Source: Gracilaria domingensis
Taxonomy: Eukaryota > Rhodophyta > Florideophyceae > Gracilariales > Gracilariaceae
Length of the DNA: 64,000 nucleotides
Reading direction: 5' to 3'
Assembly: GCA_022539475.1 (NCBI GenBank)
Contig: VCMS01000232.1
Span: 39,770 to 103,769 of the forward strand
Under the pieces are notes generated by a model. That model was given only the letters and a program-made list of their open reading frames with translations, searched no databases and had not been told where the DNA came from. The stretch's first letter is position 1, and the number at the start of each line of letters is the position of its first letter. The position numbers and the translations under genes are program-made. Below, piece after piece: positions 26,456-62,090 of this stretch.

Positions 26456-28635
26456 TTATATTCCCGTCGATGGACTGGCACCTCCCGGATTGGTGGGACC
26501 ACCCTGGTTCAGGGAAAGCGAATGGTAGCTCTGCGCAGCTAACGCCAGCATCCGGCCGATATCCGTCATCCCCGGTGGAATCGGGACGCCCACCTGCGTG
26601 AGCTGGTTTCGCAACGCAACAGCCTGCGGATCAACCGCCCTAGTCGGGGTGGTGTTCCAGCCAGGTGGAGCGCTACCCTCGCTTGCTCCCGTCGTTGGGA
26701 GAACCTGCAACTTACTCACGGGCGTCGGTTGCATCCCTTCTCCAGGATTCACTGGTTCGCTATCCATCATCGGACCGTCCCCGCTGTCTCGGGCATAAAA
26801 ACTATCGGAGAACATGAACCCGATGGGGTGATCACTCTGCACGACACGAGGCACTTGCTTCGAGGGGCGTGCTTCCGATAAGTCGATCACGGTCCCCTCC
26901 CAAGCGTTGAAGTATATGAAGTCTCCACCCCCTGGATATCGTCTTCCTGGCGACTTATTGAAGCTCGTGCACTGACTCTATGGAACGTTCTGGGGCGGTA
27001 TATGGTTCCAGTCAATATCGTAGATGACATCCAGCATGTAGAGCAATTCATCAACGTTGGTGGAGGAACCGAGAGCGGTGTGTAAATCCACTTGTCGGAT
27101 TAGCTACTTCAAATTTGGGGGAAGGTACCAAATACGGCACTGGTCGTAGACTTCCCAGAGAGTGAACGCGGCAACGCGGGCAGCCCATTCGCACATCATT
27201 AGGGCCCAGTACCCGAAATTCGGATTCGAAATCATGCGGGAGCCAATATAGGCGATGTAGGAAGGACAATCCGCGAAACAACCGCGTGGGACCTCAAGGT
27301 TGCTCCACGACGCAGGAATTAAGACGTAGCGACCCAGTAGTGCGTCATTTCGCGGACGTTCGACTTCGGAATTCGTGTAAGGTTCGAAGAACCCGAACCG
27401 GGATCGCCACTTCCTTTCGCTTCGGACACGGTGGCTGAAGGTCCCCTCACCAGAAGGGCGTCGCATGTAGCGGAAATCTGCTCGCAGAATCGGTCGGTTA
27501 AAGAGCAACCTATCCAGATCCATCGGAGCATTCGTGTCAATCTTCGTCGGATCGAAAACAGCGAGATTCGCTTTATAGGAGATTCCGCCGTACATTCGGT
27601 AACGGGAGAGATCTCTGGTGGGTTGTGAGCACGGTTCATTCGAAAGTACGAAAGAGGCACCATACCCGCGCGAGCTTCGTCAAGTGTCTCGTACCGTCTG
27701 CCGGATCCTTTCCTGTCGAGGAGGTGTGGCGCCACAGCAATGCGGGTTCCCCAATCCCAGGAGGGCACTAGATCTCGCGGCAAACCACCTGAAAGTGTGC
27801 CGTCTTGAAGGCGTGTTGGAATCGATGAGATCTTCGTCTTCCACCTCTTGAGGGTGGAACCAGGGAGCTCTGGAATATGCCCAACCGCCGTTTAATCCCG
27901 GGTCTCGCACGTGCAGCGATTCGCATGTGATCCATCCCGACGCATGCGTCGTGACCGACATACCTCCAGAAGAGTTCCAAGCCGATACCGCGGCGACGTT
28001 CATGCCTTAAACAGCTGGCCGCTGACTCCCCTGTGGCAGCAAGGATGGGGCAAAACCGCCGAAGTAGCCTGTCCCGGCAGAGGAAGGTCCGGCACCGGAG
28101 AGAGCACGAGACTGGCTGGGACCCCCTGAAGAAGGGAAAGCACTGTCGTTGGAATTCAGATTCATCGAAGGAACAATTTCTTGCATTGCTTGGTCGTTCG
28201 GAGTGTCGAAGTTCGCAACGGGCGCGTGGTTACTTGATAGTGTGTCGCTGTTGAGCGTTGGTTTTCTTGGTATCGGAATGTCCGAGTCACTCATGCCTGA
28301 GCTTATACGTTCTCGCGAACGAGATGGTGATGTCGCCGACACGGTGTTCCTCGACGTAAGGAGGGGGATGTGTAGAGCAATCGCGATTTCGCCCTTGTGA
28401 CGTGTTCCGTCTCATAACACCTCGGCTGTCCGAGTTGCCTCTGCAGCAAGTTGATGAATTCAGGTGGCATTCTGACACCATATAGCATGGTGGCATCCGA
28501 TGGGTCTGGTGGATTAATAACTGGTTGTGGCAGTGGGTCACACGTGTCCGTGTGTATAGATTGGTTCTCTAAGAGGGAATTGAATTGGTTGTTAGCATTA
28601 GTGGCCGCCAAGGCGGGTGTGACCAAGTGTGACAC
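26456..28635 (-). pseudogene. ORF-X of element A+: conserved antisense accessory protein, frameshifted
   Basis: Minus-strand coding from ATG 28635 to the stop at 26456, about 700 codons with several frame changes. An N-terminal Pro/Ser/Asn-rich region is followed by blocks that also occur, in the same order, in E1 48503-50282: P-W-F with E-D-L-I-D-S; L-P-R-D-L-V-P-S-W-D-W (about 27780); R-P-I-L-R-A-D-F-R (about 27500); E-R-K-W-R-S-R-F-G (about 27410); L-G-R-Y and E-V-P-R-G-C (about 27330-27280); Y-I-G-S (about 27250); E-W-A-A-R-V-A-A-F (about 27185); L-D-V-I-Y-D-I-D-W-N (about 27010); G-D-F-I-Y-F (about 26915); and a Gly/Pro-rich tail. It is convergent with pol of the same element. I recognise no known domain. 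Confidence 0.7.
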
Positions 28636-32019: not shown

Positions 32020-32034
32020 GACCCCCTTCCTACC
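32020..32034 (-). other. polypurine tract of element B
   Basis: On the minus strand GGGTAGGAAGGGGGT directly before the 3' LTR, the normal position for the plus-strand DNA primer. Confidence 0.75.
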
Positions 32035-35855: not shown

Positions 35856-35861
35856 GACCTG

Positions 35862-37341
35862 TTAGTAAAGATTGTCATTCCAGAGTTCACCTTCCCCAGG
35901 TATTTCCCAAACTCCCCGTACCGTATCGGTCGAAATATCACTTGGTTCAGTAGAACTTGTGAAGCACGGTATATCGTCTTCCACCGGTTCGGTTTCCAAC
36001 CCATCGGTACTAAGACGTGACAAAGCGTCTGCGACTTTGTGTTTTATACCGGGACGGTACTCTACGTCGAACTCCATCTCAGATAAATGAAACCTCCACC
36101 TGGCCAACCGCCCAGAAGCATCTGACAATCCGAGTATCCACCTGAGGGAATCATGATCAGTCCGCAAGGTAAAACGTTCACGATATAGGTAAGGACGGAG
36201 CATCAGTATGCTCCACACTACTGCTAGACATTCCTTCTCGGTTATTGTATAGTTCTCTCCCGTTCCGGTCAGCGCTCGACTCCAATAACCAATTAGTAGC
36301 TTGTCGCCGTTCTCTTGCTTTTGCATGAGGCTGCAACCAATTTGGACGTCCGAAACGTCGGTATCTAGCCTGTAACGGTAACCAGCTTTGGGTATCGCCA
36401 ATATTGGTGGGTTCAGAAGCGCTCGTTTGAGCGTTTCGAACGCGTCCATCTTTTCATCCGAGAGATTCTCAAACCTCATAGGTTGACCTTTCAGGAGCTT
36501 CCTATTCAAAGGTGCCGCAATAGTCGCAAATCCTTTGATGAATCTTCTGTAAACGTTGCAAAGACCAATAAAGGATCTCACTTCTGTCTGAGACCACGGC
36601 GCTTTCGCTTCCTGAACGGCACGCAGATTCCGCTTGTCTAGCGAATGACGATCTGGGCTCATTGTGTGCCCCAGGTATTTCACCTTGGTATCGAAAAAGA
36701 AGCACTTGCGGAGCTTCAGCGTTACCCCTGCGGTCTGTAACAATCTCAAAACCTGACGGACGTGAACGAAATGTTCTTCCGCAGATCTGGAATAGATGAT
36801 AACATCATCCAAATATACCAATGCGGTTCTCCATTTGACTTTCGAGAGGATGATATCTAGCGCTCGCTGGAACGTAGCGGGTGCATTGCAAAGACCAAAG
36901 GGCATCCGAGTAAAACGGTAAAGACCAGCATGGCACGTGAAAGCCGTTTTATCTCGGTCCTCCCCCCTTATCGGCATTTGCCAATAACCGCAATTGGCGT
37001 CCAAAGTGGTGAATATTTGTGCATCCCCAAGGGAATCAATGCACTCGTCCATCCTGGGTATTGGGTACGAATCCCGTATGGTGACATTGTTCAACTTCTC
37101 GTAGTCGATACAAAACCTCATTCTAGGATCTCCCCTTCTCTGAACCAACACCACTGAGCTGGCCCATTCCGATTGGGCAGGTTCTATTACACCTTCCCGG
37201 AGCATCCTTTCTACCTCTTCCAACTCTACCTTGCGGGCTTTTGGACCTGCACGGTAGGGTTGTTGCCATATTGGTTTCGCGTCTGGAACCAGTTCGATAC
37301 GGTGCTCAGCTGACTTGATTTCACCTAAATGGCCAGACCAC
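35862..37341 (-). pseudogene. element B reverse transcriptase and RNase H
   Basis: An open frame of 453 codons from 37223, continuing upstream in frame to the solo LTR boundary at 37341. RT: E-G-V-I-E-P-A-Q-S-E-W-A-S, F-C-I-D-Y-E-K-L-N, F-T-T-L-D-A-N, M-P-F-G-L-C-N-A-P-A-T-F, catalytic Y-L-D-D-V-I-I-Y-S. RNase H: D-T-D-V-S-D (family D-T-D-A-S-D), E-K-E-C-L-A-V-V-W, T-D-H-D-S-L and H-K-V-A-D-A-L-S-R-L. All RT catalytic residues are present. The N-terminal start of the domain is on the other side of the inserted LTR. Confidence 0.92.
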
Positions 37342-38358
37342 TGTAGAGCAAAACCCTGCGATAAACGCTATGGGGAATCTCCACTAGGATGTTTGAGTCC
37401 TACTCCCTATGAGGGATAGACTCAGCGATAGAACCCTCTGTCCGTACTCGAGTCGAGTGACAAGCCGGGTGTAAGACCGGAGACGGTGACTGGCTATACC
37501 TACAGAGGTGGGATGCAAAGAACGACGCAGATCCAGAGATGGAGTGTGATCCGAACCTGAAAAAAGGGAAAGAAAAGGGGACCGCGTGAACGGGGGAGAG
37601 CTCACGGTAGAAACCACCGGAGGGGAGCTACGGACCGTGCCAACCGGCGAGAACAGGTCCGACAGCGCAGCGACGCACTCAAAGGCGCCAAAAATAAACC
37701 CAATACTGGGGCGGAAGCGATACCTGAACCAGGTGAACAAGTGTAAACAGCAAGACTCAACAGAGTGACAACAACAAGAATCAACAACAAAAACAAAACA
37801 AGAAAGAACAAAAGACAACCGACACAACGGTAAAGACAATCAAAATTCCAAAGATGGCGAGACAAGTGCTTCCTCAGTGACCCTGAGGGGTAATAGTGCC
37901 GATACCAGTCGTGGTCACTCTCCGGTTGGAGTCGTAGACCTACGTAGGCAGTAAGCTACTATAGCCCGATCCTGAACAGGATTCGACTTGAGTTTCGACT
38001 CAGTTGTCCATTTACTTAGAGGCTCAAGGGTGAGATCACCCGAGCATATATACTATTACTATGTCTACGGTGCACATCTCCCGAGAGTTCTACACGTGGA
38101 TAACCCACTGTCAGGGTGTGGGGTAATTCTCAGCGGGCGTGGTACAACTATCTGCAGGCCAACTTCCACACGTGGCCAACTATTCCACTTACTATACCCT
38201 TCCAACAGAGGATTCACCTATCAAGGCTCCGTTAAAACCCTCCAAAAATTGCCCAAAATTAAGGGGAGTTTTCATATCTTCGCCACGTCACCGGCCATCA
38301 GTACCATCTCATTATGAGTGGCATGATGCATCCGATATCGGAAAGCCGTTGCTCCACA
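37342..38358 (-). repeat. 1017-bp solo LTR inserted in element B pol
   Basis: TGTAGAGCAAAACCC ... GTTGCTCCACA, with perfect 5-bp target duplication ACCAC at 37337-37341 and 38359-38363. Removing the LTR and one duplication rejoins the pol frame as E-T-M-W-S-G-H-L-G-E-I, which matches E1 (P-M-W-D-G-T-L-G-K-I), confirming the boundaries. Internal motif AGCCGGGTGTAAGACCGG and a purine tract relate it to the LTRs at 20.4, 28.7, 47.4, 58.4 and 60.8 kb; it is the same broad family as E1 but distinct. Confidence 0.93.
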
Positions 38359-38363
38359 ACCAC

Positions 38364-39437
38364 ATGGTTTCAAATTCTTCAAGGAGACGGAGGATACGTC
38401 GCTTGTATGGACCGTAATCGTTACCTACTTGGACTTCCTCTCTCCAATCCCTTACTGGATCTAGCTCCAGTTTCTTCCTGGCTTTTCCCGCATCGGTGTC
38501 AGTATCGGCCAGTACGATCTTGTCATCAGCATTCTTCGATACAACTTGATAGTTCTCGAACGATTTCCTCCCCCCTTCCTTAGAGTAGGCGAACTCGCTG
38601 GACTCGGTTGGCATCATGAATACACCTCTTGGGGCTGGTAGAGCGACACCTATCACGGTATTCTTCGGTAAATGCACCGTGTGGTTTCCGAAATTGCTGA
38701 GGTATACCTCATATGGTCTATGGGGTACGTTCTCGACGATTCCGTTCGCCATTAAGGTAAGATATCGTTCCGCTGTCCTTGGATGGTTCTGCAACGTTAC
38801 CAGGCCTGGCGTATCGCATGAAACCGTAACCGTAGCCTGGTGCATAGGGGCTATAGAAACCTTCTTGGTGAGCCTAACCTTCTTGGAAAGCGTATTGGTT
38901 GGAAGTTTCCGCGTTGGTGTTCGGGCCCAACCACTCCTAGTTTTCGTATGACCTTGAATGGCAACCTTTCCACCGTAACGGAGCAGGATTGTCTGTGATC
39001 CTGGGGAGATTGCTCTCACATGATTTTCAATGAAACTAGTTCCCAGGATGCAATCCGCAGCCAATCTGTCCACAACGTAGAACTTCACTCGCACCTTCCA
39101 GGTTCCAATTTGCACCATAGTGGTCAGCGTTCCTCTTACTAACAGAGGGCGATTGTTAGCGTCTACCAATGGGTTGAGTGTAGCTTCCGACTTGAGTGTA
39201 TCCAGCACCGCTTTCGGTATCACACGGGCGTTCAATACGCACGGACTGGCACCAGTATCGAGTACGGAAATTGCAGGCACCACAAGGTGAGAAACAAAGC
39301 GAAACACCAACTTTAGAGTTATTGTACTTCATGAACATAACCTTCATTGGTGCACTGTTCTCGTCCTTCACGGTGTCATCCAATCCTTTCGGTATCGCAT
39401 GGCCTTCCAAATTCCGGTTGGGTGTGGCCTCGACCAC
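38364..39437 (-). pseudogene. element B aspartic protease and pro-RT linker
   Basis: From 39310 an open frame gives S-V-L-D-T-G-A-S-P (catalytic D-T-G), N-N-R-P-L (flap side), C-I-L-G-T-S-F-I, then a long linker down to E-E-F-E-T-M-W at the LTR insertion. The segment 39437-39310 precedes it in another frame, so a frameshift or a stop separates it from gag. Retropepsin of the usual Ty3/gypsy type. Confidence 0.85.
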
Positions 39438-39445
39438 AACCGGTT

Positions 39446-41708
39446 TTAGTTTTCCTCCTGCTTGGGAGCAGAGGAGGCTTCCAAGATCGGTTCCTGTTCC
39501 ACAAGGTTGACCTGACTGGGTCCAGAAGGTGCTGATTTGCTACCAATTGGTAGGTTACGTTCAGGACCAAATAGGTGAAAATGATTTTGCTGCCTGGCCT
39601 GGACAAGTCCATCGCGCAATCCGGGCGGTAATTTGTCACACCTATATGCCATGTGATCAGCTGAAAGGCAAAAACAGCAAAGAAGTCCCCCTGTATGAGG
39701 GTCCCGCATCACCATCGAGGTGGACTTCCGTTCTTCAGGGTTCGAAGTCGCATAAGACGAGTTAGAACCACTTTAGGCATTCCGTTGACGGGTACCGACG
39801 GGAGCAGGTGACTGTGTTGCCGCCCTGGTCGGTGGCGTGACAGACTGAGGAGTGCCAATTGGTGTGGTTGACCAGTTCCCTACAGTAGAGGGTCGGGAAT
39901 TTCCATGTGGTGCAGCAAATAAGTGAATTGCAGTACCAGTTGGTATCCTGATCAAAGAATCACCATCTGTGGTAGAGTTCTCTTCGATTTCCCTCACGGA
40001 CCGTTTCGGTTTCTCCGTTGTGGTAGGACCATGAGTCGGTTTCTTACCCATGCAGAGCGTGTCGCCCAGACCCTGAGCGTACCTGGCAAGGGTATCGTAG
40101 TCTACCTCTCGGTTAGTTGTGAAGTAATTACGTACCTGAGAGCGGATGGCTCTGTCAACATTGTCAGAGAACATTGACTTTAACCTCGTGGTAGTGATCA
40201 CGTTCCCGCATCGCGTGGCTAGGTTCCACAAGGCAACTGAGAATTCCATTTCGGTTTGGCCCGAACTTTGACGGTAAGCGAGCAACTCCGAGTAGGACTC
40301 CTGTATTACCTCATCCGTCGCATATGTCTCCAACAAGAAATTAACCTCTTCAGGGTAGCTCTCCAACATCTCCGTTTCTTCGTTGTCAACCACTAGGGTA
40401 TTTCCTCGAAGGCGCCCCTGCAGGCGGTGGTAGGCTTGTCCTTTAAGGTAGAACTGGAACAATCACATGGCAGCCCCTTCGGAAAAACCATTCTGGTCAC
40501 AGGCGATCTTGAATTTCTGCAAAAACTCAATCACCGCGATGGGATCCTCACCGGTAAATACAGTGTCACCCATCTGAAAGCTGAGTTTCTTGTGATGCTT
40601 AGTAATTTTCTGAGCTACCGCATCGGTGTAGTCAGAATCCTTGTTCCGTATCCTGTAGGTCCTATAATCAACCGCTTTGGTGAACAGGTCGTTCAACGGC
40701 TGAATTACCTCCAGGTCGGAAACGGTGTCTGATTCGGTATCAGAATCATTCCTTCCTTTCCTACCCTTGCGGGTTCCCTTAGATTTTCTTGTAGACCTCT
40801 TGGTTTTGTTCCTTCTCCTTCTCTTACCTTTACGGTCGTCCTCCGAGGACTCCGAATCGGTATCTGAACTCGACGAAGTATAACTCGAATCCCACTTCCT
40901 CTGCCTACCTCGACGGTTCTCTTTTCCTTACCTTTATGGTTTCTTCGCCGCTCATCCTCCGAGTCGGGCGAATCACCCTCAGGGCCATCTCCTCCGGCAC
41001 GCTGTCGAGCGATACCAATTGGTTTGGGCAAATAGGTTTGGGCAAATAGTAACCGATCGGAACATCTGCTGCCGAGCCCTTGCGGTCACATCCCAACGAA
41101 CCCTTGTGGTCCCCACTGTCAGCTGGTAAAGACTGAGCATATTGTAGCGAACCCCTCGGGACCTCATAAGGCGTCGTGCCTACTATGTTCACCCTGGATG
41201 GTCTTCCTTCTGCGTACCCTTCGGTAATCCATAGGTCTTGAACAACGCGGTATATCTCACCTTTGGCGTCCGTCCATAGGTACTCGCGCACCATTTTCGG
41301 TAGCATTGCCCTAACTTCCACAACCGCGCGGTCAATTACCACTCGGGTAAGTGTGTCCACATCCAAAGAGGGCGCAGCTATTCCACCTTCAAGGTCTACC
41401 TTATTGGTCGTGGCGTCCTTCACCACTTGGGTCACGAGATTTCTGGCTCGCTCCTCAAGACGAGGCCAGATCTCCTCAACCATTTCACCACAAGGATTAA
41501 CCTTCAGGGTATCTGGCGGCGCCCTTACCACCGCCGGGTCGTCCTGACGGACAGCCTTACCTCTTGGGTTACGTAGCAATTCCTCCGGGTTATCCAAAAT
41601 TGGTTGTACCGGAGGTACAGAAGGTCCACCTGCAAGGCTAGAAGGTGCAATAGACCCTTGAATAGACCTCTTAGGTTTCACCATTATTTGGCCGACGGGG
41701 GTAGCCAA
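39446..41708 (-). pseudogene. element B gag, interrupted
   Basis: From ATG 41708. N-terminal Pro/Val-rich region with a helical D-T-L-T-R-V-V-I-D-R block, then a frameshift near 40.95 kb into a Lys/Arg/Ser/Asp-rich linker. The D-Y-R-T-Y-R-I box follows, then F-T-G-E-D-P-I-A-V-I-E-F-L and, after TGA 40463-40465, L-F-Q-F-Y-L-K-G-Q-A. A TAA at 39773-39775 precedes an intact zinc knuckle C-C-F-C-(x4)-H-(x4)-C near 39.68 kb. The stops are in frame, so this was one protein of about 750 residues. Confidence 0.82.
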
Positions 41709-41825
41709 TTGTTTTCCTGGTATTCCAACTACCGAATTGGTTTGAATTCCTTTCGTCCTACGAAGGGCTTCGTTTCCAGAGTGGGCACGACAAAAACCTA
41801 TTAGGTGTTATTCAACAACAACCTT

Positions 41826-41846
41826 CTAAGTCGGGAGCCCGAAATA
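41826..41846 (-). other. primer-binding site of element B (degenerate)
   Basis: Minus strand, directly inside the 5' LTR: TATTTCGGGCTCCCGACTTAG. It shares CTCCCGACTTAG with the PBS of A-, E1 and E2, but the CCA-complement TGG is lost or changed. Confidence 0.6.
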
Positions 41847-42363
41847 TGTCGTATAGCCACGGGCTGTGTTCGTCGGTTGTGGGGAGCCAGCGAGGGCTCA
41901 ACCTATAAGGTACGAAATAGGAGACGAACCACGACGGTAGATGAGCACCTGAATACCAAGTTTTACAGTAGGTAAGATTGCTAGCTCCGGCTGTATCGGA
42001 AACAGCAAGCGAGAGCGCAAGCGTACGTCGTATAAGACCTTAGCGGTGGTAGTCCTAGACCAGAAGGGCAAAAGATTACCAAGTTGGTGCTTACTTTACA
42101 TCCGTAGAAGACGCGGACCTCGGCAGCGCCTAAGTATGGCTGCCGGGTCAACGCAATCTAGCACACGTGGGAGAACTATTGTCTGGTGCACCACGTGCGT
42201 CTCTAAAATATCTATCTAATTAAATAAATTATCTAAATTAGTAACAAGTTAGTAGAATGTCCACCAAACCATCAACACCAACTTGGTAGACCTGTAGTGT
42301 CTCAACCACCTCCAGATGATCTCCTTTTTAGAAGAACCATTAGGTCAAATTAATTGTACGACA
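41847..42363 (-). repeat. 5' LTR of element B
   Basis: TGTCGT...ACGACA (6-bp terminal inverted repeat), 517 bp, followed by target duplication TGCAC at 42364-42368. Confidence 0.92.
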
Positions 42364-47449: not shown

Positions 47450-48451
47450 TGTGGTGCAAAACCCTCGACGGGAAAACAACAAGCCGCGTCGCGACGAGCA
47501 CCTCAGGGTGTTCAGGCCCTGCTCCCTGTGAAGGGCAGTCGAGCGGCAGAACCCTCCGATAGGGCCAACACGAGCCGGGTGTAATCCGGGTGGCCCCGAT
47601 CTGGGCGTGCAGTCGGAGGTAGAAGGGGTAGAATCGGCGTAGGTATCCGGATGGTTCCGGCGAGCCACAGCGAGTGGGGGTATCCAGCCCAACGGTATGG
47701 GACGACAAAAGATCAACAAACGAGCCGCACTGCGGAGCACTGACTCGCGATAAGCGGGAAAACTCCCGAGACAAATAAAACAAACCTACAATGTAGGGCA
47801 GAGTAGCGAAAGCCGTAAGACGGAAATGAAAACAATAAAATAGATACGGAAAGTGCCGTGACGACGGATTAGTACTCCTCAGTGGACGGAGGTTGGTTGA
47901 TCAGCCGCGAATTGCGGCGGTATTCCCCAGGATCGGGGCTGGCTGACCGTGGCGCAAGCGGCAAGCACAGATCAGGCCAAGGCCTCGTTGAGGTTTAACT
48001 TCCCGTAACAGTGGCGGCAAGNGACGACGGATTAGTACCTCAGGGACGGAGGGTTGGTTGATCAGCCCGAATTGCGGCGGTATTCCCCAGGATGGGGCTG
48101 GTGACGTGCGCAAGCGGCAAGAAGATCAGAGCCAAAGGCCTCGTTGAGGTTTACTTCCCGTACAGTGGCGGCAAGTGCGCCACTTATATACGGCACTTGA
48201 AATATCAATTAAATATCTAACTATCCGGCGCTGCCGGCCATACACTACAGGTGTGCACCGTGGCAGGCTTGCCACGGCGCACCCGCTATCGGGCAACTTG
48301 GCACACGTGTGCAGAAATACTACCTTCCTAGGCATACCCAAATAGGGCACTACCCAGTAGCTCTCATAACCTGAGGTGTCGAAGCCGATGACGGATCAAC
48401 AAACTATGAAAAGCACCTCGGTGCATCCCCAAAAGGGCGTTTTGCTCTACA
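47450..48451 (-). repeat. 3' LTR of E1 (with assembly duplication)
   Basis: TGTGGTGCAAAACCC ... GTTTTGCTCTACA. It is 1002 bp against 857 bp for the other LTR. The excess is a repeat of about 155 bp on either side of an N at 48022. Many single-base losses in homopolymers relative to 58438-59294. Confidence 0.9.
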
Positions 48452-48465
48452 TCTCCCTTCTCAGG
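48452..48465 (-). other. polypurine tract of E1
   Basis: Minus strand GCCTGAGAAGGGAGA immediately before the 3' LTR start TGTAGAGC. Confidence 0.6.
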
Positions 48466-48502
48466 CTGAGACACCGACTCCGTCGGCTCGATACGCCTCG
48501 CG

Positions 48503-50282
48503 ATGGAGGTATATAAGGAAGTCTCCCAAGACGGGTCTGCCGAGAACTGTTCGGAGCCACAACACTCCGGTGTCAGTAGCGAACCTCGTCATCTCGAGCC
48601 CTCCGCGATGTCCAACGCACCGAACGGCCTCCGTCTCGACGGCACGCATGCAAGTATCGAACCCGCCGTTCCGGTCTGTTCTCTCCCGCAGTCGGCGGCT
48701 GCCTCCCAGCCGGGTTCTTCCGGACAAGATCACGCTCCAGCCCAGGCTGGTCCCGCGCCGTGTGGGATTGGTTCAACGCCGAGATGCCAGCTACGCTGGG
48801 TGGATGGCCTACCGCAGGCGCGTTACGCATCCGGGATCCGCACCGGCACAGTTTCCTTTTTGCCCAGGCTCCTGGTTTGACGCCGAAGCCGTTCGGGATA
48901 CGGAGCTCGTCGACTCGTACGCTGTCGACGGTCAACTCCCTGGTGGGCTTCCTGCTGACGTTACCCGTTCATGGGACTGGATCGCCCGCGTGCGGTTATA
49001 CCGAGCTGCCTGTTTGTAGGTCGAAACGAGACGAGACAATTCGCTCGCAATGAGATGGCCGCATTGGGTAGCGCGACACTTCCGAGCTCCGAACGAACAT
49101 CCGGTGCCGGCACAGTACAGTACGATGTGGCACGTTACCGAACTTTCGGCGAGGTCGGCTACGGCGACCATCTAGCCAACGCGTTGGACGAAATTGACCG
49201 ATATTCGGATACCGTTCAGCCGCAGCAGGAGTTGATCCTGTGGGCGCGGCCGATCCTTCGCGCCGAGTTCCGGTTCCTTCGCCGTCCTGGACGGTCTCAA
49301 TTTCATGAAGGCCTCCGCTTCGAGAGGAAATGGCGTTCCCGCTTCGGGGTACTGGTGCCGTACCAGTGCACGGAGGTGGAACGCATTGCGCGTCATTCCA
49401 TACTGGGCGATACCTGCCGCTGCCGTCATTCTGGCCTGCGGTCGAAGTCCCACGAGGGTGTCACGTAGAGCTACGCCCTGCCTAACTTACATAGGCTCGT
49501 ACTTCATGAATGATCCGCCTCGCGGCCTGTGGAGCATCCTGGCAACAGAATGGACCGTCCGCGTTGCGGCTTTCCTCCTCATCGAGGCATATGACTCATA
49601 CCGAGTTTGGTTCATCCGGAACTCATCCGGCAAGCGATCCGAGCGTTGGATCTCTCCGAAGTGCTCGGCTCGGTCCGCAATGCGCGCGAAGCCACCGCGT
49701 TGGTGGACGTCATTGACCAGATTGACTGGAATGAGGTGCCTGCTAGTCAGGTTTCCGACGGGGTCCGTCGGCAGTCGGACCGTTCCCCGGACGGAACGTC
49801 AACGCCGGCGACTTCGTATACTTTGACCCATGGATTTGGGAGGTAATTGGTCCCGCTGAGGCGGCTGGTCGCCGCCGAGAGGAGCGATATATCCGGAAGG
49901 GCACCCGCGTGGGTTCGTATACGTCGACGATGACGGTGATGACCCTGCAGAGGGAGGAAGTCCATGGATGAGGGGAGCCCAGTGGGGGTTGCCTCGGAGC
50001 CCGACGCTACGGGAGATGACGACGAAGTCGTGATCGTTGACCCGCCCGCTGTAGCGGCTCCCGCTCCGACCGGCCGTGGGCTCAGGATGTAGCATCCGCC
50101 GTGGGCGGCAGTTCTTCTCTCACTCCGCGAGCGGCGGTCATTCGCGACTTCCTTCGAGGCGTGGGAGTGGCCGTTCCGATACGGTGACCGACGAGTCGGA
50201 GTTGCAGGCAATAGCGGCACAGCGCTTCTCCGGGGCTCCCGGTAGTGGGGGCACCCCAGGTGCTGGACCGTCCGGCGCGTAA
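48503..50282 (+). CDS. ORF-X of E1: antisense accessory protein of unknown function
   Basis: Plus strand, opposite to gag-pol and convergent with it. From ATG 48503, about 590 codons read through frames that change near 48.83, 49.02, 49.43, 49.5, 49.6 and 50.1 kb. Each frame change keeps homology to 26456-28635. Layout: Pro/Ser/Ala-rich N-terminus (about 110 residues); S-W-F with D-T-E-L-V-D-S; L-P-A-D-V-T-R-S-W-D-W; R-P-I-L-R-A-E-F-R-F-L-R-R-P; E-R-K-W-R-S-R-F-G; E-V-E-R; P-R-G; Y-I-G-S; E-W-T-V-R-V-A-A-F-L-L-I-E-A-Y-D; L-I-R-Q; D-V-I-D-Q-I-D-W-N; G-D-F-V-Y-F; Gly/Pro-rich tail. No signal peptide, no zinc motif, no enzyme motif known to me. It starts 51 bp inside the LTR, so an antisense promoter in the LTR would have to drive it. 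Confidence 0.72.
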
Positions 50283-50765: not shown

Positions 50766-53700
50766 TCAACCCACTTGGGCCTTGTCCAGCGTAGCCGGTA
50801 TCGGTGTCCGTGTGCGACGGTGGTACTGCAAGACCTTCGAGCGAGGCAAGTGCTCAATGGGCTCGTGCGTATCCTCTGAAGAGGCGTAGCCGTACCAACG
50901 GACTCGATACAGTAGTTCCCGTCAGGGGCGTAGCCGTGACTTATCAGACGGTCAATGACATACTCCTCATCGAGGACCTTCCGCGCAGGATGCGGCTTTG
51001 TCGATGTATCCTCTCTCGAGGTGTCGTTGTTACTCTCCCGTCGTGGGCTTCATTGGTTACTTTCGGCTTCCGTCCTGACGGCAAGACATCCTGTACGCCA
51101 GGCGAGAGCCATTTTGACCATGGTGTTTCCATGTCATTCCGGCTTCCAGAGTTCTGGCTTTCCTTCCGTATTGTCGGGCTGTTACCGAGCTTCGGTGTTC
51201 TGGAATAGCGAGCTTCCGGCGTTCCGGCAAGATCTCCCGAAGTGAGGGTGAACGGTCCGCAATGCGGTGTGCCAGCGAGTGGTGCCGTGGCACGTGCCGA
51301 GGCGACGCCTTGCCAAGCATTGCTGGCGGTGGGGCCTGCGCCGTTGCACGGCTGTGCGTTGCCGATTCAAATTCGGAATTTCCGTTTCCGGCGGCCGCAA
51401 GCCTTACAGCGGGCACGTGCCCGGCTCGTGTGTTGTCACCCTCCACTGGAGGCGGATCGCCGGCGAAGCCAGACACTTGGCGCAGCGTGCGCGCGTGTGC
51501 AGCGTTGGGCTGCTGCCCACTACTGTGGCATGTCGACCTGCTGTTGCGGCGGTTGCCTCCGTGTTTTCAACGGCTTCATCACTCGATGCCTCAATAAATC
51601 TCCCGAAATCGGGTCTGCCGTAACAACACGGTCTTTCTGGACAGGCTTCTTTTCCGGTCTTCCGGCTTCTTTTGACGCGAGTGCGCTGCCGCTGCCGGGC
51701 TCCGACTGCGGCGGGCATGTACTTTCCGCATTCGACGTGGCTGCTGCGGTGGTTACCACCTCTTTTCCGGCGTACCGGTCTCACGCTGCACAGCTGGGGC
51801 AGGCTCTTGTCCTTCCGTCTGTGACGGCCGTACAGTGCTATCCGCGGGCGAAGCGGCGACTTCTGCAGCAGCTACATCCTGGTGTTCTTCTGGTTCTCCG
51901 GCTTCGTGCTCCACCGAAGTGGTGCGTTCCTCTTTAGGCTTCCGCGATGACTGCGCGTTTCTCGCTTCTTTCCGAATCTTCGGCTGTACGTCGCGCGTCC
52001 GCGTGCTTTCACCACGATTGCGTGCGGCCCGGAGGCCTGCAAAGGCACTTCCGTCGACGACGGCGACAACGAAATCGAGCGACTTACCTCCTCCTCCCCC
52101 TCTCAGTTGGAGCGTCGGGGGTGGTGGTGAGTATCCCTGAGGGGCCAGTATCCGCGTGTGGACATGTGCGGCGTTCGAGACTGGCGGGTTAGCTTCCGGC
52201 TTTGCCGGCAAATCAGCAAGTCCGCGGCTAGGATGCGGCAGGACTGACAACGAAGCGCGCTCTCCCGCTGTCGCGGCTGGGTCCACAGTAGGCGTAGCGC
52301 TGTCCGGCGTTTCCGGTTGCTTTTCCTGACGAACAGGCTGTGGCGCAGGCGTTACGCGATCGCGCGAAAAACGCTCGTGTTCACCCTCAATATCGAGGAC
52401 AACCGTTGTATCGGTGATAGAAATAACCTGTAGGGGCCGTCCGCGATAGGAGAGAGCTTATGCTCTTCTCCTTTTCCGGGTTATAGTATTCCTTCCGTAG
52501 GAAGGCGTAGTTACCTTCCTGATCTGAGGGGCATCCTGCGCATTCGTGCGTCGAAATTCCGCTTGTACGCGGCTTGTGCCTTATCGATGTTTTGCCTAAC
52601 TGTAGGAATGATGTTCTTAAGCCAGGCCTTCCAGGCGTCCCTGTGTAGACGAGGCGAGGGGAACTTATCCAAAGTTGGCTGTGGCTCGATAGCCACCGAA
52701 GGTGGAACGCGTGATAGCACAAGCTCGAACGGCGAGATCTGAGTAGTGCGATGAACCTGCGTATTGTAGGCATATGTCACCGCATCGGTGTATTGATCCC
52801 ACTCCGACGGATGTTCGGCAACGAATGTCCGTAATGCATTGAGCATTGTGCGGTTAAAACGTTCAACCTGCCATTACTCTGGGGGTGGTATGTTGTCGTA
52901 AACCAGTTTTGGATCCGCAAGATGCGGCAAACGTCCTGAAAGAACTTAGCCGTAAACTGCGGTCCATTGTCCGATAACAGGTCAATCGGCGGTCCGTAGA
53001 CAAAACCCAGTGTGTAACGAAAGCTTGGGCGACCGCACTGGCGGTAACCTTCGTCAAAGGCACAGTCCGTACCAGTTTAGAAAACGGTCGGTGATCACAA
53101 GTAGAAACCGGTTTCCCCGGCGAGTGCGGATAAACTCGCCGAGCAAGTCAATTGCCACGAATTCAAGTGGAGCCCTAGCAGGGAAGAGTACCAACTTCTT
53201 GGAGTACTTCCGCAGTTTGACGCGGTTCTTCGCGCAGTCAGAACATCCACGAACAGTGGCATACGCGTCGAAAGCCATTGCTGGCCAGTAAAAGTCTTCC
53301 GTAAGGTGTAGTACAACTTCCTGCACCAGGGTGGGCTGACAACTTCGCGTAGTGCGACAAATGCAGTACTCGTGACTGAAGTGAGTGCGGAACCACAATC
53401 TGTGGCCTGTTTCCGACGGTTCGGATTAGAAATCCTTGGTCGTTCTCGACGAAAGGCAACTGTGCTCCACCGTTTAGGCGACTACGAATCTCCGTACAAA
53501 ACGGTCGGTGTGCTGCTCCCGGATGAGTTCCTCCGGCTTGATCGGTACGAAAGAGCCGGTTCGGGTTGCGTGTCAGACACGGCTAAAACAGCATCGTAGA
53601 TGTCCATCCTTCCGATTCTTCATCGGCATCGCTCGAGCCGTCTTCCACGAGGAAGCACGGTATCTCCAGATCATCGACTGGCGCAGCTTCAGCCGCTGTT

Positions 53701-56147
53701 TCCAAGCGGGACAGTGCATCAGCCTGAGTGTTCAGGAGTCCTTTCTTGTAACGGATTTCGAAGTCGAATTCCGACAAGCGAAGTCTCCACCGCATCAAGC
53801 GGCCAGATGGCTCTGCTATAGAGAGTAGCCAGCGTAATGCCGAATGATCGGTATGGACAATGAAGCGGGTCCCATAAGATAGGGCCGCAGTGTCTGTAAC
53901 GCCCAGACAACTGCCAAGCACTCCTTCTCGGATACCGAGTAATTCCTCTCGTGAACGTTGAGGCTCCTTGACCAATACCCAATTGGCAATCGCTCGCCAT
54001 CATTGGTGGTCTGGAATAGGGCACAGCCGACTTGGTAGTCGCTCGCATCCGTATCTACTGCATATGGCAGACCAGCCCTAGGCAGGGATAAAACAGGTGG
54101 CGATGTCACCGCGTCCACGAGCGACGAGAAAGCCGCGACCTTGCGGTCATCAAATTCTTCCAGGTCGACTGGCTGGCCTTTGCGAAGAAGCTCGTTCAGA
54201 GGTGCAGCGATATCCGCGAAGTTCGGAATGAAGCGGCGATACACATTGCACAAGCCGAGAAAAGATCGGAGTTCCGTCTGCGTCCTCGGATGCCTAGCCT
54301 CTTTGAGGGATTTCACGCGTACTTCGTCAATCGAAAGCCGTCCCGGACGGATAACATGGCCGAGATACCTGACGGTTTCGGTAAAGAACTCACACTTCTT
54401 GAGCTTGAGCGTAATGCCTGCATCGCGTAGGACTCGCATCACATCCCGTACGTGGGTCAAGTGCTCATCCAGGTTGCTGGAGTAGACAATGATGTCATCC
54501 AGGTATACCAGGCAAGTCTTCCACTTAAAGCGGGCTAGCAAAATATCCACAGCTCGTTGAAAAGTGGCTGGCGCGTTCGTTAACCCAAAGGGCATCCGAT
54601 TGAATCGGTACAATCCTTCATGACAAACGAAGGCTGTCTTGTCACGATCCTCAGCCCTCACGGGTACTTGCCAATAGCCCAATTCGCGTCTAGGGTTGTG
54701 AACACTTTCGCGTCGCCCAATGAATCGATGCATTCATCCATTCGTGGGATAGGATACACATCCTTGACCGTAGCCGCGTTTAGCTTGCGGTAATCGATGC
54801 AAAATCGCCAAGACCCATCAGCTTTGGGCGCGAGCACCACCGGCGATGCCCAAGGTGACTGAGCCGGCTCGATAACTCCAGCGCGGAGCATCTTCTCAAC
54901 TTGAGCTTTCTCCTCCTGCCGAGCTGTCGGTCCTGCCCTGTAAGGGTGCTGTGAAATGGGCCGAGTATTCGGTAGCAAATCAATCCGATGTTCGGTAATA
55001 CCAATCTTACCCAGAGTGCCATCCCACATGGGCGTGAACTCCTCAAGCATGTGCCGCAATTTATCGCGGTGAGTCTCTGGGACATGTTCAAGATCCAGAG
55101 ACTCCAGTTCCTGTACTGCCTTATCCTTCGTGTCAGCAGCACTCAGGTCCGTATCATTACTGTCCGACGAGGTCGGCATTGCCTCCTTCGACAGGCTGCG
55201 GTTATTTGCATCCGACGAAGTCGGCGTAGCATCTTCCGACGAACTGTTCGGTCCAGTCGTTTCGGAATTGTTCCGTTCCGCCTCCCCTCCTCAGCTTCGA
55301 GGATTCCGAGAACCTCGGCAATAGAAACCTGAGTAGGCACTATAGCCACAGGATGCGGAAGCAACGAACCAATAACTTGGCTCCTAACCAACCGTTGAGA
55401 AAAACGGCTGAAGTTCGCAACCAGCACCTGAAAAGGCTTCTCGGGTTCGACGAAAACAATCCCATTAGCGAGGGCAAGCTGATGCTTCTCCTGTAACGCA
55501 GGCAACGGTTGTACCGTTTGTAAGCCACATTGTGGGGAGGTCACAGTAACCCAGACCTGTGATTCAGGCGGGATGGAAATGGGCCGAGCTACTCGGAGCT
55601 TTGTAGACTTCCGTTCATCGGCTGTAGGCTTCTGCGCAGCAGGCAATGGCACTTGCTTCTTCAGAGCCCTTCTAAGGGGTCGCCGAACGATCGGTACAGT
55701 AGTCCCATCTTCCATCTCGATGGTTCGCTTCCGCGGTCGAATTGCATCGACGAAGCGGTCACAGAAGTCGCAGCCGAGGATAACCGGCGCAGCGAGTTGC
55801 TTGCAAACCAAGAAATCGAGCTTCGCCACGTAGCGGCCAAGCCTGACGAGCAGGTCTATTACTCCCACAGTCGAAAGTGGCCGATTGTTCGCATCCGCTA
55901 TATCAATCTGCGGCGCCGCACGAACGCGAGACCGCAAGTGCGGCGGAATCATAGACTCAACCAAAAAGTTTGGCCCAGCTCCTGTATCGAGCACGGACAA
56001 CTGCCGAACCATGTACTGGTCGGAAACACCTAGGTCGGCGTAAACTTTGTAGTTACGTTTCGCCATGACCAGGACTCTATCCGGGAACCGGCTGTTCTTA
56101 GACCGTATCCACGGGCGACGCAAGACACCAAGGTGCTCAGAGTCCAC
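50766..56147 (-). CDS. E1 pol: protease, RT, RNase H, integrase, chromodomain (homopolymer frameshifts)
   Basis: From ATG 56147. Protease S-V-L-D-T-G-A-G and I-L-G-C-D-F. RT F-C-I-D-Y-R-K-L-N, M-P-F-G-L-T-N-A-P and catalytic Y-L-D-D-I-I-V-Y-S. RNase H D-T-D-A-S-D, T-D-H-S-A-L and A-D-A-L-S-R-L. Integrase H-L-S-H with A-H-P-G, C-S-D-C and V-A-I-D-L-L-G; D2 is at about 52.96 kb, followed by R-F-N in the DDE Glu region at about 52.86 kb. Then comes a Pro/Ala/Glu-rich linker of about 450 codons (52.4-51.0 kb) and a chromodomain, E-E-Y-V-I-D-R-L-I-S-H and Y-R-V-R-W-Y-G-Y, at 50971-50766 ending L-D-K-A-Q-V-G-stop. The frame changes at six places; each is mended by one base in a homopolymer, so I treat this as one gene read badly. 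The linker is unusually long for a gypsy integrase tail. Confidence 0.82.
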
Positions 56148-56263
56148 GTCTGTAGTGGCCAGTTTCCTCGAAAGGATTGTGACCGGGGAGCGAGGCTTCG
56201 CAGCCTCAGGCGCACTAAACCCCGTCGCTGGGGGCGCCTCTCCATTGCTGGAGGCTCCCTTGC

Positions 56264-58273
56264 TCAGTTTTTCTGAGCGTCGCCGCCAATCTGCGGAGGT
56301 TGCGGTTCCGCAGGGGCGGCTACAGTTCCACCATTCGATGGCACCGTTTCCTGGTTTCCAGGCTGAGTCTCCGCCTTCGCACGAAGGTACGATTTGTCGG
56401 GAACACGTTCCCGCTCGGCGGGCGTCAACGACTCATACTGAGGCACTATCTTCGCCATATCCCGTATGGGCATTAAGCAATTCGGAGCGATGTGCCCTGG
56501 CCTGTAACAGGTATGACAAATAAGGTGACGAAGAAGATCCGCGTTGGGCGGCCGGCGCTCCTGTCGAGGAGGATACGGGTCCCTCCATCCAGGGCGTTGG
56601 CTTCGATATCCGCCAGAGTGCGGCACGGGCAATGCCGGGACTTGACGTCCGGCGTACAGAGCGGGGTCTGCATCCACTGTAGACTGCTCCGTCGTCGACG
56701 GCAATTCCGAACTCGGCATTGAACCATCGTCCTGTAACAGGTGCAGGTTATCATAACCCCCTTGAACAGAACCTCGCGAATGAGGCAGTGAGGAGTCTCG
56801 GCCTTCTACATGAAGGAGTCGGCGCGTGCGCGCCTTGATGCCAGTGCGTGCTCGAGCTGCATCTCCCTCCGCTTGGGCAAATTGAACGAGTTCCAGATAG
56901 GTAATCCGGCGTTTGTTCTCCCGATAATGGGCTACCAACGTCCGAATTGATCGGTCCAGTCCATCAACAAACATCGTACACCGCTCGGCTGCGGAGAACA
57001 CGTTGCCACATCTGTGGAAAGCCTTATTGAGGCGGGTCGAATAAACGGTTTCCGACTCTTCGGCTCCTTGCTTCGTGTCTCGTAGCGCGAGTATGGCACC
57101 TTGTATCGCATTGCCTGTCGCGTAAGAGCGCAGGAGATATTGTACCGCTTCCGGCCAGCACGTAACTCCTCCTTCGGAGGCGCGAGACGACCCACGAACC
57201 GAATTGAATTGATCTTCGGCTACACCCGTCAAAAAGTACGGCAGCGCGATGTAGACCTGTGCCTCACTCATCCGAAGTACATCGGCTTCCGCTACGAAGC
57301 GGCTAAGAAAATCCAAGACCAGAATTGGATCTTCCCCAGAGAACTTGTGGGGCTTTAGCGTGAGCTCCATTTGTCGGAGATGATTTCGCACTTTGCCAGT
57401 CCCACGTGGGGTCCTCTGTGGCGTCGTGTCATCAAGCCGATAATATCGGTAAGATAGCAGCTTCCGATACAGTAAGTTTGTCGGCTTCAACTCCTTCAAT
57501 CCGAGGTGTCTCCGTCCTTTCGTACGGCCTCGTGCAACGCCAGAAGTGGCTTCAGTAGCCCGCGAACGGGATGCACGATAGCGAGAGCGCTCTTCCGCGC
57601 TGTCCGAAGAGTCGGTAGACGATCCCTTTTTGGGGCCCTCCTCATCAGAAGAGGATGAAGAAGACGAGTCAGACTCAACCTTGACCTTCTTCTTTGCCGG
57701 ACGATCCCGGGAACGGCGCGAGTGCTGAGAACCCTCAGAAACCGGGGCTCCCGGCGCAACAGCATCAGATACGATGATTTGCTCGACCGTCTCCAGACGG
57801 GTAGCCAGGCGGTCCAGGCGTGCGGCAGCCTGCTCGTGCAGACCAGCCGACACCTGTCGGTGTTCCATAATCTGGTTGACATCAGACCGTAAAACACGGA
57901 CGTCGCTCGAAACATCCCGGACACCGGCTTCATCGAGCCGTTGCCGGAGCTTCGTAATATCCCGGATGAGGCCCACTTGGGAGTTCTGCAGGATGCGAAC
58001 CTGAGCCTCTAATTCACGGAGGGTATACTCGTCGGACCGCGACGACATAACGTCAACCGCTGCGGCGGCATCAGCCGCAGGTGCGGTTTCAGTTGGCCCA
58101 CGAGTGGGTGGGGTCCCGTTATCAGAACGGCGGCCCCGGGAAGCCGGTTTCGGGTCGCCATTGCCTGGGACCTCCAGTGCGTCCTTCGGCAACGGAGGCA
58201 AACTTGCCGGCAAGCCGGACGAACCGGGCACAGAAGCGGCACGTGGCGCGCCACTCCTGCGACGGGAGGACAT
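56264..58273 (-). CDS. E1 gag
   Basis: An intact 669-residue ORF from ATG 58273 (M-S-S-R-R-R-S-G). Order: Pro/Gly-rich basic N-terminus; coiled coil about residues 80-170 (L-R-E-L-E-A-Q-V-R-I-L, then heptads); Ser/Asp/Glu-rich and RS-rich linker; box L-S-Y-R-Y-Y-R-L; capsid-like core F-S-G-E-D-P-I-L-V-L-D-F-L-S-R-F; canonical CCHC knuckle C-H-T-C-(x4)-H-(x4)-C near residue 590; acidic C-terminus. It is the best-preserved of the four related gags in the window (A-, B, E1, E2). The stop is 114 bp before the first pol ATG, so pol may need reinitiation, frameshifting or a separate message. Confidence 0.9.
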   Translation of the reverse strand: MSSRRRSGAPRAASVPGSSGLPASLPPLPKDALEVPGNGDPKPASRGRRSDNGTPPTRGPTETAPAADAAAAVDVMSSRSDEYTLRELEAQVRILQNSQVGLIRDITKLRQRLDEAGVRDVSSDVRVLRSDVNQIMEHRQVSAGLHEQAAARLDRLATRLETVEQIIVSDAVAPGAPVSEGSQHSRRSRDRPAKKKVKVESDSSSSSSSDEEGPKKGSSTDSSDSAEERSRYRASRSRATEATSGVARGRTKGRRHLGLKELKPTNLLYRKLLSYRYYRLDDTTPQRTPRGTGKVRNHLRQMELTLKPHKFSGEDPILVLDFLSRFVAEADVLRMSEAQVYIALPYFLTGVAEDQFNSVRGSSRASEGGVTCWPEAVQYLLRSYATGNAIQGAILALRDTKQGAEESETVYSTRLNKAFHRCGNVFSAAERCTMFVDGLDRSIRTLVAHYRENKRRITYLELVQFAQAEGDAARARTGIKARTRRLLHVEGRDSSLPHSRGSVQGGYDNLHLLQDDGSMPSSELPSTTEQSTVDADPALYAGRQVPALPVPHSGGYRSQRPGWRDPYPPRQERRPPNADLLRHLICHTCYRPGHIAPNCLMPIRDMAKIVPQYESLTPAERERVPDKSYLRAKAETQPGNQETVPSNGGTVAAPAEPQPPQIGGDAQKN

Positions 58274-58437: not shown

Positions 58438-59294
58438 TGTGGTGCAAAACCCTCGACGGGAAAACAACAAGCCGCGTCGCGAACGAGCACCTCAGGGTGT
58501 TCAGGCCCTGCTCCCTGTGAAGGGCAGTCGAGCGGCAGAACCCTCCGATAGGGCCAACACGAGCCGGGTGTAAATCCGGGTGGCCCCGATCTGGGCGTGC
58601 AGTCGGAGGTAGAAGGGGTAGAATCGGCGTAGGTATCCGGATGGTTCCGGCGAGCCACAGCGAGTGGGGGTATCCAGCCCAACGGTATGGGACGACAAAA
58701 GATCAACAAACGAGCCGCACTGCGGAGCACTGACTCGCGATAAGCGGGAAAACTCCCGAGACAAATAAAACAAACCTACAATGTAGGGCAGAGTAGCGAA
58801 AGCCGTAAGACGGAAATGAAAACAATAAAATAGATACGGAAAGTGCCGTGACGACGGATTAGTACTCCTCAGGGACGGAGGTTGGTTGATCAGCCCGGAA
58901 TTGCGGCGGTATTCCCCAGGATGGGGCTGGTGACCGTGCGCAAGCGGCAAGAAGATCAGAGCCAAAGGCCTCGTTGAGGTTTACTTCCCGTACAGTGGCG
59001 GCAAGTGCCGCCACTTATATACGGCACTTGAAAATATCAATTAAAATATCTAACTATCCGGCGCTGCCGGCCAATACACTACAGGTGTGCAACCGTGGCA
59101 GGCTTGCCACGGCGCACCCGCTATCGGGCCAACTTGGCACACGTGTGCAGAAATACTACCCTTCCTAGGCATAACCCAAAATAGGGCACTACCCCAGTAG
59201 CCTCTCATAACCTGAGGTGTCGAAGCCGATGACGGATCAACAAACTATGAAAAACACCTCGGTGCATCCCCACAAAAGGGCGTTTTGCTCTACA
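58438..59294 (-). repeat. 5' LTR of E1
   Basis: 857 bp, TGTGGTGCAAAACCC ... GTTTTGCTCTACA, followed by target copy ACCTT (59295-59299). Same length as, and inverted to, the E2 LTR at 60797-61653. Confidence 0.93.
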
Positions 59295-59797: not shown

Positions 59798-59934
59798 CCT
59801 AAGATAAATTGAATTGGTAATTGAATTAAGTAAAATTTGAATTGAGTTTAGAAATTTGAAGATATTTGAATTAAATTTGAAGATTGAATTGAGTCAAAGT
59901 TCGCGTGAAATTACAAAAGTACTTATATTTTAAA

Positions 59935-60796
59935 ATGTCTAATCCTCCTCAAGCTCAATTTCAACAAAGTGTGCAAGCCATTCAAGAACTACAGCAGCAA
60001 GTAGCTCAACTACAAAACCAACTAAATAATGCTAATCGTGCCTTTGTGGGTTTCGTTAATAGTAACCAGCCTAACACTGCATTAAAAATTGGTAAACCAG
60101 AAAAGTTCTCCGGTAAGAATGCTCGTAGTTGGATAAAATGTTTAGAGAATATTTTTCTAGGCATGACTAATGAACCATCCGAAGAACAAAAAATTAAATA
60201 TGCTGTTAGCTATATGAGTGGGGACGCATTACAATGGTGGGAGTTAATTACTATTGATGGCAATGAAATTAAATCATTCAATGAATTTAAAGATAAACTC
60301 CTACAGTATTTCGAGCCTGTGAATAGAGAATTAACCGCAAGAAGAAAGTTATGCGAATTAAAGCAAATTGGAAAATTTAGTACTGTACGATCCTATAATC
60401 AAGAATTCACAAGATGGTTATTGCAAATTCCTACCATGACTCAAGCGGAACAATTATTCCACTATAGTCAAGGATTAAGAACAAGAACTCGAATTGAAGT
60501 AGAGCGAGCAGAACCATCAAATGTGCAAGATGCAATGAAAATTGCAGATAAATTAGATAATATATTCCGTAGTGGTACCTGGAATGTAAACCGTTTAGGA
60601 ACCACTAACAGTAGCAATCAAGGACCTGTTCCGATGCAAATTGGAAATATTAAAATGAGAAGAAATCCAATAATTTCTACGGACGAGAAAAAACGTTGTT
60701 GGGATAACAAATTATGCTTTATATGCAAAAAGAAAGGATGCTTTGCCAAGAACCACTATGGAAATAGGGTTCAAAGGGCATACAACCCAAAAAACT
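59935..60796 (+). pseudogene. gag of element F, cut by E2
   Basis: From ATG 59935 (M-S-N-P-P-Q-A-Q-F). Gln-rich coiled coil (residues 10-35), then the retrotransposon gag domain: N-A-R-S-W-I-K-C-L-E-N, Y-M-S-G-D-A-L-Q-W-W-E, F-N-E-F-K-D-K-L-L-Q-Y-F, L-K-Q-I-G-K-F-S-T-V-R-S-Y. The knuckle reads C-F-I-C-K-K-K-G-C-F-A-K-N-H, that is C-x2-C-x4-C-x4-H: His and Cys swapped relative to CCHC. The frame runs into the E2 LTR and stops at once (60799-60801). AT-rich codon use, unlike E1. Confidence 0.85.
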
Positions 60797-61653
60797 TGTA
60801 GAGCAAAACGCCCTTTTGTGGGGATGCACCGAGGTGCTTTTCATAGTTTGTTGATCCGTCATCGGCTTCGACACCTCAGGTTATGAGAGGCTACTGGGGT
60901 AGTGCCCTATTTTGGGTTATGCCTAGGAAGGGTAGTATTTCTGCACACGTGTGCCAAGTTGGCCCGATAGCGGGTGCGCCGTGGCAAGCCTGCCACGGTT
61001 GCACACCTGTAGTGTATTGGCCGGCAGCGCCGGATAGTTAGATATTTTAATTGATATTTTCAAGTGCCGTATATAAGTGGCGGCACTTGCCGCCACTGTA
61101 CGGGAAGTAAACCTCAACGAGGCCTTTGGCTCTGATCTTCTTGCCGCTTGCGCACGGTCACCAGCCCCATCCTGGGGAATACCGCCGCAATTCCGGGCTG
61201 ATCAACCAACCTCCGTCCCTGAGGAGTACTAATCCGTCGTCACGGCACTTTCCGTATCTATTTTATTGTTTTCATTTCCGTCTTACGGCTTTCGCTACTC
61301 TGCCCTACATTGTAGGTTTGTTTTATTTGTCTCGGGAGTTTTCCCGCTTATCGCGAGTCAGTGCTCCGCAGTGCGGCTCGTTTGTTGATCTTTTGTCGTC
61401 CCATACCGTTGGGCTGGATACCCCCACTCGCTGTGGCTCGCCGGAACCATCCGGATACCTACGCCGATTCTACCCCTTCTACCTCCGACTGCACGCCCAG
61501 ATCGGGGCCACCCGGATTTACACCCGGCTCGTGTTGGCCCTATCGGAGGGTTCTGCCGCTCGACTGCCCTTCACAGGGAGCAGGGCCTGAACACCCTGAG
61601 GTGCTCGTCCGCGACGCGGCTTGTTGTTTTCCCGTCGAGGGTTTTGCACCACA
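60797..61653 (+). repeat. 5' LTR of E2
   Basis: 857 bp, TGTAGAGCAAAACGCCC ... GGTTTTGCACCACA; inverted, near-identical copy of 58438-59294. TATA-like TATATAAGTGG at about 61069-61079. Confidence 0.93.
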
Positions 61654-61963: not shown

Positions 61964-62090
61964 ACAATCGTTGGAGCTGGTTCGTTTGATTAGAGCCCAG
62001 ATAGTTGGGAATATCCGTTCTTACGGTTCTCTCATTGTCCGTTTTCGGAAGTTGTTTTGGTTGCCCATTGGCCGACTGTGTCGGTGAACG

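Follow-up and report, generated by a model that had tools for sequence, protein, structure and literature searches.

Antisense accessory genes of Gypsy retrotransposons are known mainly from flowering plants, and the parts of the literature consulted assign them no function (PMC7264820, PMC11963269). In the plant Retand elements, an antisense open reading frame (ORF) sits between pol and the 3' LTR and carries TRP28 in 97% of clusters, according to the consulted portion of one study (PMC11963269). Antisense ORFs at the same place have been described for Grande (gene23), RIRE2, PvRetro13 and the fungal element Boty, and the same excerpts report a nuclear location and a separate promoter for the maize Grande antisense protein, and an antisense promoter in the 3' LTR of HTLV (PMC7264820). 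What two further papers describe, in their consulted parts, are accessory genes of algal DNA transposons and not an antisense Gypsy ORF (PMC12477816, PMC6431247). For red-algal Gypsy elements, we found no such ORF mentioned in the titles and abstract beginnings of the open-licence literature, covered partly by searches aimed at red algae and exclusive of Repbase and the subscription journals.

Here we analyse such an ORF, called ORF-X, in a stretch of 64,000 nucleotides from the red alga Gracilaria domingensis (the window). A first-pass annotation of the window had proposed that ORF-X is antisense to gag-pol and lies between the chromodomain end of pol and the 3' LTR, and both its coordinates and its placement were confirmed.

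The element in the window

On the minus strand, the element reads 5' LTR, gag-position ORF, reverse transcriptase, RNase H, integrase-like and chromodomain end, spacer, polypurine tract and 3' LTR, and ORF-X, on the plus strand, lies between the chromodomain end of pol and the 3' LTR (Table 1). Within the window pol, Pfam places reverse transcriptase and RNase H at 53816-54733, next to a protease-like match below the cut-off and an integrase-like and chromodomain end. Copies elsewhere in the genome complete this picture: L062 matches RVT_1, RT_RNaseH, Integrase_H2C2 and rve, Chromo stands above the cut-off in L003, the chromodomain is recognised by motif in L061 and L062, and chromodomain-like motifs are present in three of the lineages defined below (A, C and D). 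By their order of reverse transcriptase, RNase H, integrase and chromodomain, the host elements class from their sequence as Ty3/Gypsy elements with a chromodomain. Two LTRs and a polypurine tract are seen, and the printed flanks show no matching target-site duplication.

Table 1. Features of the ORF-X element and its relative in the window
Feature	Position	Strand	Remarks
ORF-X relative, lineage B, degraded	26468..27937	-	35% identity over 518 aligned positions (tblastn within the window)
3' LTR	47450..48451	-	N at 48022; some 150 nt duplicated
Stretch from 3' LTR end to first ATG	48452..48502		opens with the complement of the polypurine tract
ORF-X	48503..50282	+	antisense to gag-pol; ATG at 48503, stop ending 50282; frame broken in the window copy, open over 599 codons in other copies
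pol region, several frames	50766..56432	-	left limit taken from the pol stop of the first-pass annotation
ORF in gag position, 670 codons	56264..58276	-	named by position alone; no Pfam gag match
5' LTR	58438..59294	-	

Other features of the window concern its assembly and its remaining mobile elements. The duplication in the 3' LTR (47860-48021 versus 48023-48175) is split by the N, and both are probably an assembly join or fault. An inverted second copy of the same element, 1.5 kb off, extends to the contig end (56950-59295 versus 60796-63412, 98.6-99.5% identity over the two longest pieces), and the pair represents either two insertions or an assembly fault. Between the inverted copies, an ORF at 59893-60801 on the plus strand carries Ty3_capsid and Retrotrans_gag and belongs to another Gypsy family. 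Transposase pieces with DDE_Tnp_4 and Plant_tran lie at 2934-3482 and 13912-14556, both on the plus strand.

The frame in the window and in other copies

The first-pass annotation had taken ORF-X to be readable across its length, which holds for other copies and fails for the window copy, whose frame is discontinuous, the longest overlapping open piece on the plus strand counting 214 codons. Against four genomic copies, the window copy shows 1, 2, 2 and 10 substitutions per 1777 aligned bases, together with 20 one-base gaps, every one on the window side, and zero insertions; homopolymers hold 17-19 of these gaps. Two non-window copies compared with each other differ by 5 substitutions and no gap. 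Gaps of the same kind appear between the 3' and 5' LTRs of the window element, and the window ends where its contig ends. Since the gaps are mostly homopolymeric and the substitutions few, we read the broken frame as poor assembly rather than decay.

A DNA search, in which the best 40 of 246 candidates were scored (97-100% identity), yielded 30 loci that were fetched. Measured from stop to stop, the frame spans 610 codons in 20 of the 30 (599 residues from the first ATG) and 594 codons in two more, so that 22 loci hold a frame of at least 594 codons, and it is shorter in eight, the window copy included. At the protein level, where the best 73 of 1351 candidates were scored, 53 matches are free of internal stops and 20 contain at least one. 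The lineage B copy of the window as query (best 150 of 977 candidates scored) gave matches falling in identity steps of about 75-82%, 60% and 50%, and queries with further relatives were scored for the best 92 of 1129 and the best 150 of 1055 candidates. Many of the relatives are open over 600-703 codons and others contain stops. All these counts are lower bounds, as is the family size of more than 200 matches from two protein searches together.

The relatives fall into lineages that we name A (that of the window), B, C with C2, D, E and F, so that A has at least five further lineages beside it in the same genome; the rows of our alignment (A1) other than A show 34-48% identity to A. ORF-X recurs in many copies and is not a gene captured by one copy.

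The neighbouring Gypsy element of the window (31506-42359) yielded no ORF-X by tblastn, and none of 93 of its integrase matches (from at least 150), compared with part of the ORF-X matches, is linked to one. Its plus-strand ORF at 33394-33948, antisense to its pol, was considered as an equivalent of ORF-X and rejected, as other copies do not have it as a long gene. An 80-residue stretch of this ORF recurs in 112 matches; beside integrase matches of the neighbouring element, it is on the opposite strand at places such as C138, C38, C342, C62, C28 and C399, and on the same strand at others (C204, C131, C287, C340, C18 and C169).

Antisense placement across lineages

Among 134 related integrase matches listed, 100 have an ORF-X 1.4-3.6 kb to their 3' side on the opposite strand, and none has one there on the same strand. 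In this count, made with an incomplete set of ORF-X matches, linkage is found for 79 of 105 D-type integrases and 21 of 29 others. Four of the 34 matches that lack a linked ORF-X are too near a contig start, and for the remaining ones ORF-X may have been lost or truncated, or be missing from the set. A count on a smaller set of ORF-X matches linked 70 of the 134 and placed four ORF-X matches within 8 kb on the 5' side. When the linked cases are assigned by contig, B, C, C2, D and F are among the lineages represented. In lineage A, the ORF-X core and the chromodomain motifs are on opposite strands in all 30 loci, and in D and C, too, ORF-X and the adjoining pol frame occupy different strands. 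The opposite-strand position is thus common to lineages A, B, C, D and F.

Selection on the protein

Ratios of nonsynonymous to synonymous change (dN/dS, Nei-Gojobori) were calculated for 11 pairs in the ORF-X frame and compared over six frames. Between lineages they range from 0.13 to 0.29 (C/C2 0.13, A/A2 0.17, F/E 0.20, A/C 0.21, A/D 0.24, C/D 0.29, D/F 0.29), the values of the distant pairs being rough because dS is high. The close pairs, which may include dying copies, gave 0.53 and 0.25 (C/C), 0.47 (C2/C2) and 0.39 (B/B). The ORF-X frame has the lowest ratio of the six in 10 of the 11 pairs, the exception being C2/C2, where one minus-strand frame reaches 0.43. This competing frame has its third positions in common with ORF-X and is second-lowest in the other pairs; the two can be told apart because, over eight representatives, ORF-X contains no stop and the minus frame contains 12-28. 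Each of the five other frames holds 5-28 stops, and these counts, plus the identity retained across lineages, rule out a chance frame. For pol, dN/dS cannot serve as a yardstick, since dS is saturated, and dN alone is comparable: in the C-D pair, it is 0.158 for RNase H-integrase versus 0.528 for ORF-X.

The ORF-X protein is therefore maintained by purifying selection, and we regard it as almost certain that ORF-X is a real gene under selection. The proposal of an element-encoded antisense protein, which the first-pass annotation had tied to dN/dS and to the presence of the ORF in other copies, is borne out on both counts.

A protein without recognisable domain

Seven representatives share 123 invariant positions (in columns filled in at least five of them), rich in P, G, R and W. 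Ten of these are W and 16 are R, in agreement with the W/R-rich conserved blocks noticed at first pass. The core, which measures 348-353 residues in lineages A, C, D and F, is preceded by a low-complexity N-tail and followed by an acidic C-tail, and the end GAGPS is shared. The highest 19-residue hydropathy mean in these four lineages is 1.54, which gives no membrane span, and the envelope-like reading was rejected on this ground.

None of 32 members matches any Pfam family at E 0.1. Against PDB, a single-sequence search gave no match and a profile search gave one hit, which we attribute to chance (E 0.65, 20 residues), so that the earlier statement that no domain is recognisable still stands after the profile search it had called for. 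Phage, IMG/VR and GTDB collections contain no relatives, these database searches being blind to most eukaryotes. A profile comparison with the Gag of the element shows no likeness (probability 0.1%), and likeness to Pfam capsid families is equally lacking, so the Gag or capsid reading was also discarded on the level of sequence. Within the collections and literature searched, the protein family seems to be undescribed.

Other proteins of this genome were also searched. Its phycobilisome linker (PF00427) has 14 matches, on C8, C11, C25, C47, C104, C128, C142, C257 and C680, the last of which also carries ApcE and is probably plastid. For the linker from C8 and ApcE from C680, the best or second-best match is PDB 5y6p, which we take to be from the red alga Griffithsia. 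These proteins identify the host as a red alga; an oomycete host had been considered and was dropped, elicitin (PF00964) having no match here and its control giving none either.

Start codon and putative promoter

Going inward from the LTR end, the polypurine tract comes first and the first ATG follows at 53-80 nt from the LTR, a layout that recurs in the other lineages read. The second methionine, residue 37, aligns with methionines of other lineages, and the first ATG is therefore not certain to be the true start. On the other hand, B, C and C2 use differing codons for similar residues directly behind the first ATG (IPxPR), and so this stretch looks translated.

In five lineages, A, B, C, C2 and F, a TATAA motif starts 61-63 nt inward of the LTR end (in ORF-X orientation, L003 1575, L041 789, L054 824, L052 813 and L067 212), whereas lineage D lacks it and has TAAATA at about the equivalent place. 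Shuffled segments contain TATAA in 1-8% of cases. Its distance from the LTR end is fixed in the five lineages and its distance from the ATG is variable. In B, C, C2 and F, only 7-19 nt separate the motif from the first ATG downstream, and in A the motif follows that ATG; for this reason it is poorly suited as a plain TATA promoter for that start. The second methionine, 99-154 nt downstream, would fit such a promoter as the start. The motif could be an antisense core promoter, and it could serve either strand.

Proposed role and alternative explanations

On balance, we lean towards ORF-X being an accessory gene that encodes a protein in a group of red-algal Gypsy elements with chromodomain, transcribed antisense and with a soluble regulatory product; for the accessory or regulatory role as such, which is drawn by analogy, we consider the chances about even. 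ORF-X runs towards pol on the opposite strand, between the polypurine tract with the 3' LTR and the pol end. As an antisense protein cannot be read from the genomic RNA, its own transcript from the DNA copy is needed, and this would start within the 3' LTR or the short segment between its end and the ATG. The product would be a soluble intracellular protein with a W/R-rich core of about 350 residues between its two tails. By analogy, it would regulate the cycle of the element, most likely in the nucleus, acting on transcription, RNA handling or the pre-integration complex. A soluble regulator is favoured because there is no membrane span and, by sequence, no capsid likeness.

The main rival to this soluble regulator, which we consider unlikely, is that ORF-X shields the element from host silencing: convergent transcription would yield double-stranded RNA, and the protein would weaken the host's reaction to it, for instance through binding to Argonaute or small RNA. 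ORF-X is indeed convergent with pol, and the host has four Piwi-domain (Argonaute-like) genes and, because of them, probably RNA silencing. These genes are found at C25:437662, C207:44371, C61:231607 and C140:204136, in frames of 886-1098 codons. The invariant W92 and G103-W104, on the border of the N-tail, and W532, within the C-tail, bear what we take to be a weak likeness to Argonaute hooks, but such positions are few and the majority of the invariant tryptophans lie in the core.

Less probable still is that the ancestor of these elements captured a cellular gene which they now use. A capture would fit the single origin of a 600-residue protein, but Pfam, PDB, IMG/VR and GTDB offer no relatives, and no host homologue outside the elements is found among the best matches listed. 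A more far-reaching proposal ranks behind both as improbable. According to it, ORF-X would be a new family, perhaps of novel fold, which the ancestor of the red-algal chromodomain Gypsy clade acquired; its antisense place would belong to the mechanism, the convergent transcript marking a copy for silencing and the protein lifting silencing at the same locus, and flowering plants and red algae would have arrived at the antisense design independently.

Lower again we place a particle protein, that is, a second Gag or an envelope-like protein. Its length of about 600 residues and its abundance would suit such a role, and additional sense-strand ORFs next to the 3' LTR frequently resemble envelope genes, as stated in the consulted part of PMC7264820. 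However, the protein has neither a membrane span nor any profile likeness to the Gag of the element nor a match in Pfam (32 of 32 members), and the antisense placement keeps ORF-X off the genomic RNA. That the antisense RNA itself acts and the open frame is a by-product has on its side the antisense non-coding transcripts reported for some LTR elements (PMC7264820, in the part consulted) but retains next to no probability, as selection at the protein level, conservation across lineages and the confinement of stops to other frames, in our reading, refute it, joint roles of RNA and protein being possible.

Comparison with known systems

As in Retand, Grande, RIRE2 and PvRetro13, to the extent that the consulted texts describe them, ORF-X lies between pol and the 3' LTR, is antisense, occurs in most copies and is conserved across lineages. 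No tie to TRP28 was detected, none of the 32 members matching PF04195 or any other Pfam family at E 0.1; genome-wide, this profile has no match at E 10, the control genomes being below the cut-off as well. Contrary to plant Retand, described in the consulted part as a non-chromovirus, the ORF-X elements carry a chromodomain (A, C and D), and they differ from the plant elements in their red-algal host and in a protein of about 600 residues without known domain. Fungal Boty, likened here by the description consulted, shows that an antisense ORF between pol and the 3' LTR also exists outside plants. With the HTLV antisense gene, which we take to be HBZ, ORF-X has in common, as far as its description was consulted, that the reading of the protein runs counter to the sense genes and comes from the side of the 3' LTR, and we use this as a working analogy. 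Chronos, an oomycete Gypsy element, also has a chromodomain at the pol end, but the second, archaeal-type RNase H given for it in the consulted part of PMC5348765, where the word antisense is absent, was not found in the pol read here: at E 0.01, the RNase H of the 1239-codon pol frame of L062 consists only of RT_RNaseH and RT_RNaseH_2, overlapping at one place.

The first-pass annotation had called ORF-X its strongest candidate for something undescribed. For the protein family this seems to hold, whereas the arrangement is of a known kind, because antisense ORFs at this place have already been reported in plants and a fungus; what sets ORF-X apart is the protein, its red-algal host and its occurrence in chromodomain elements. 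That a second, unrelated-looking protein, with more than 200 matches and under purifying selection, occupies the same antisense slot hints at some general advantage of this position next to the 3' LTR. Next to the plant elements, those of red algae thus provide a new protein family and an independent system for finding out why this antisense slot is useful.
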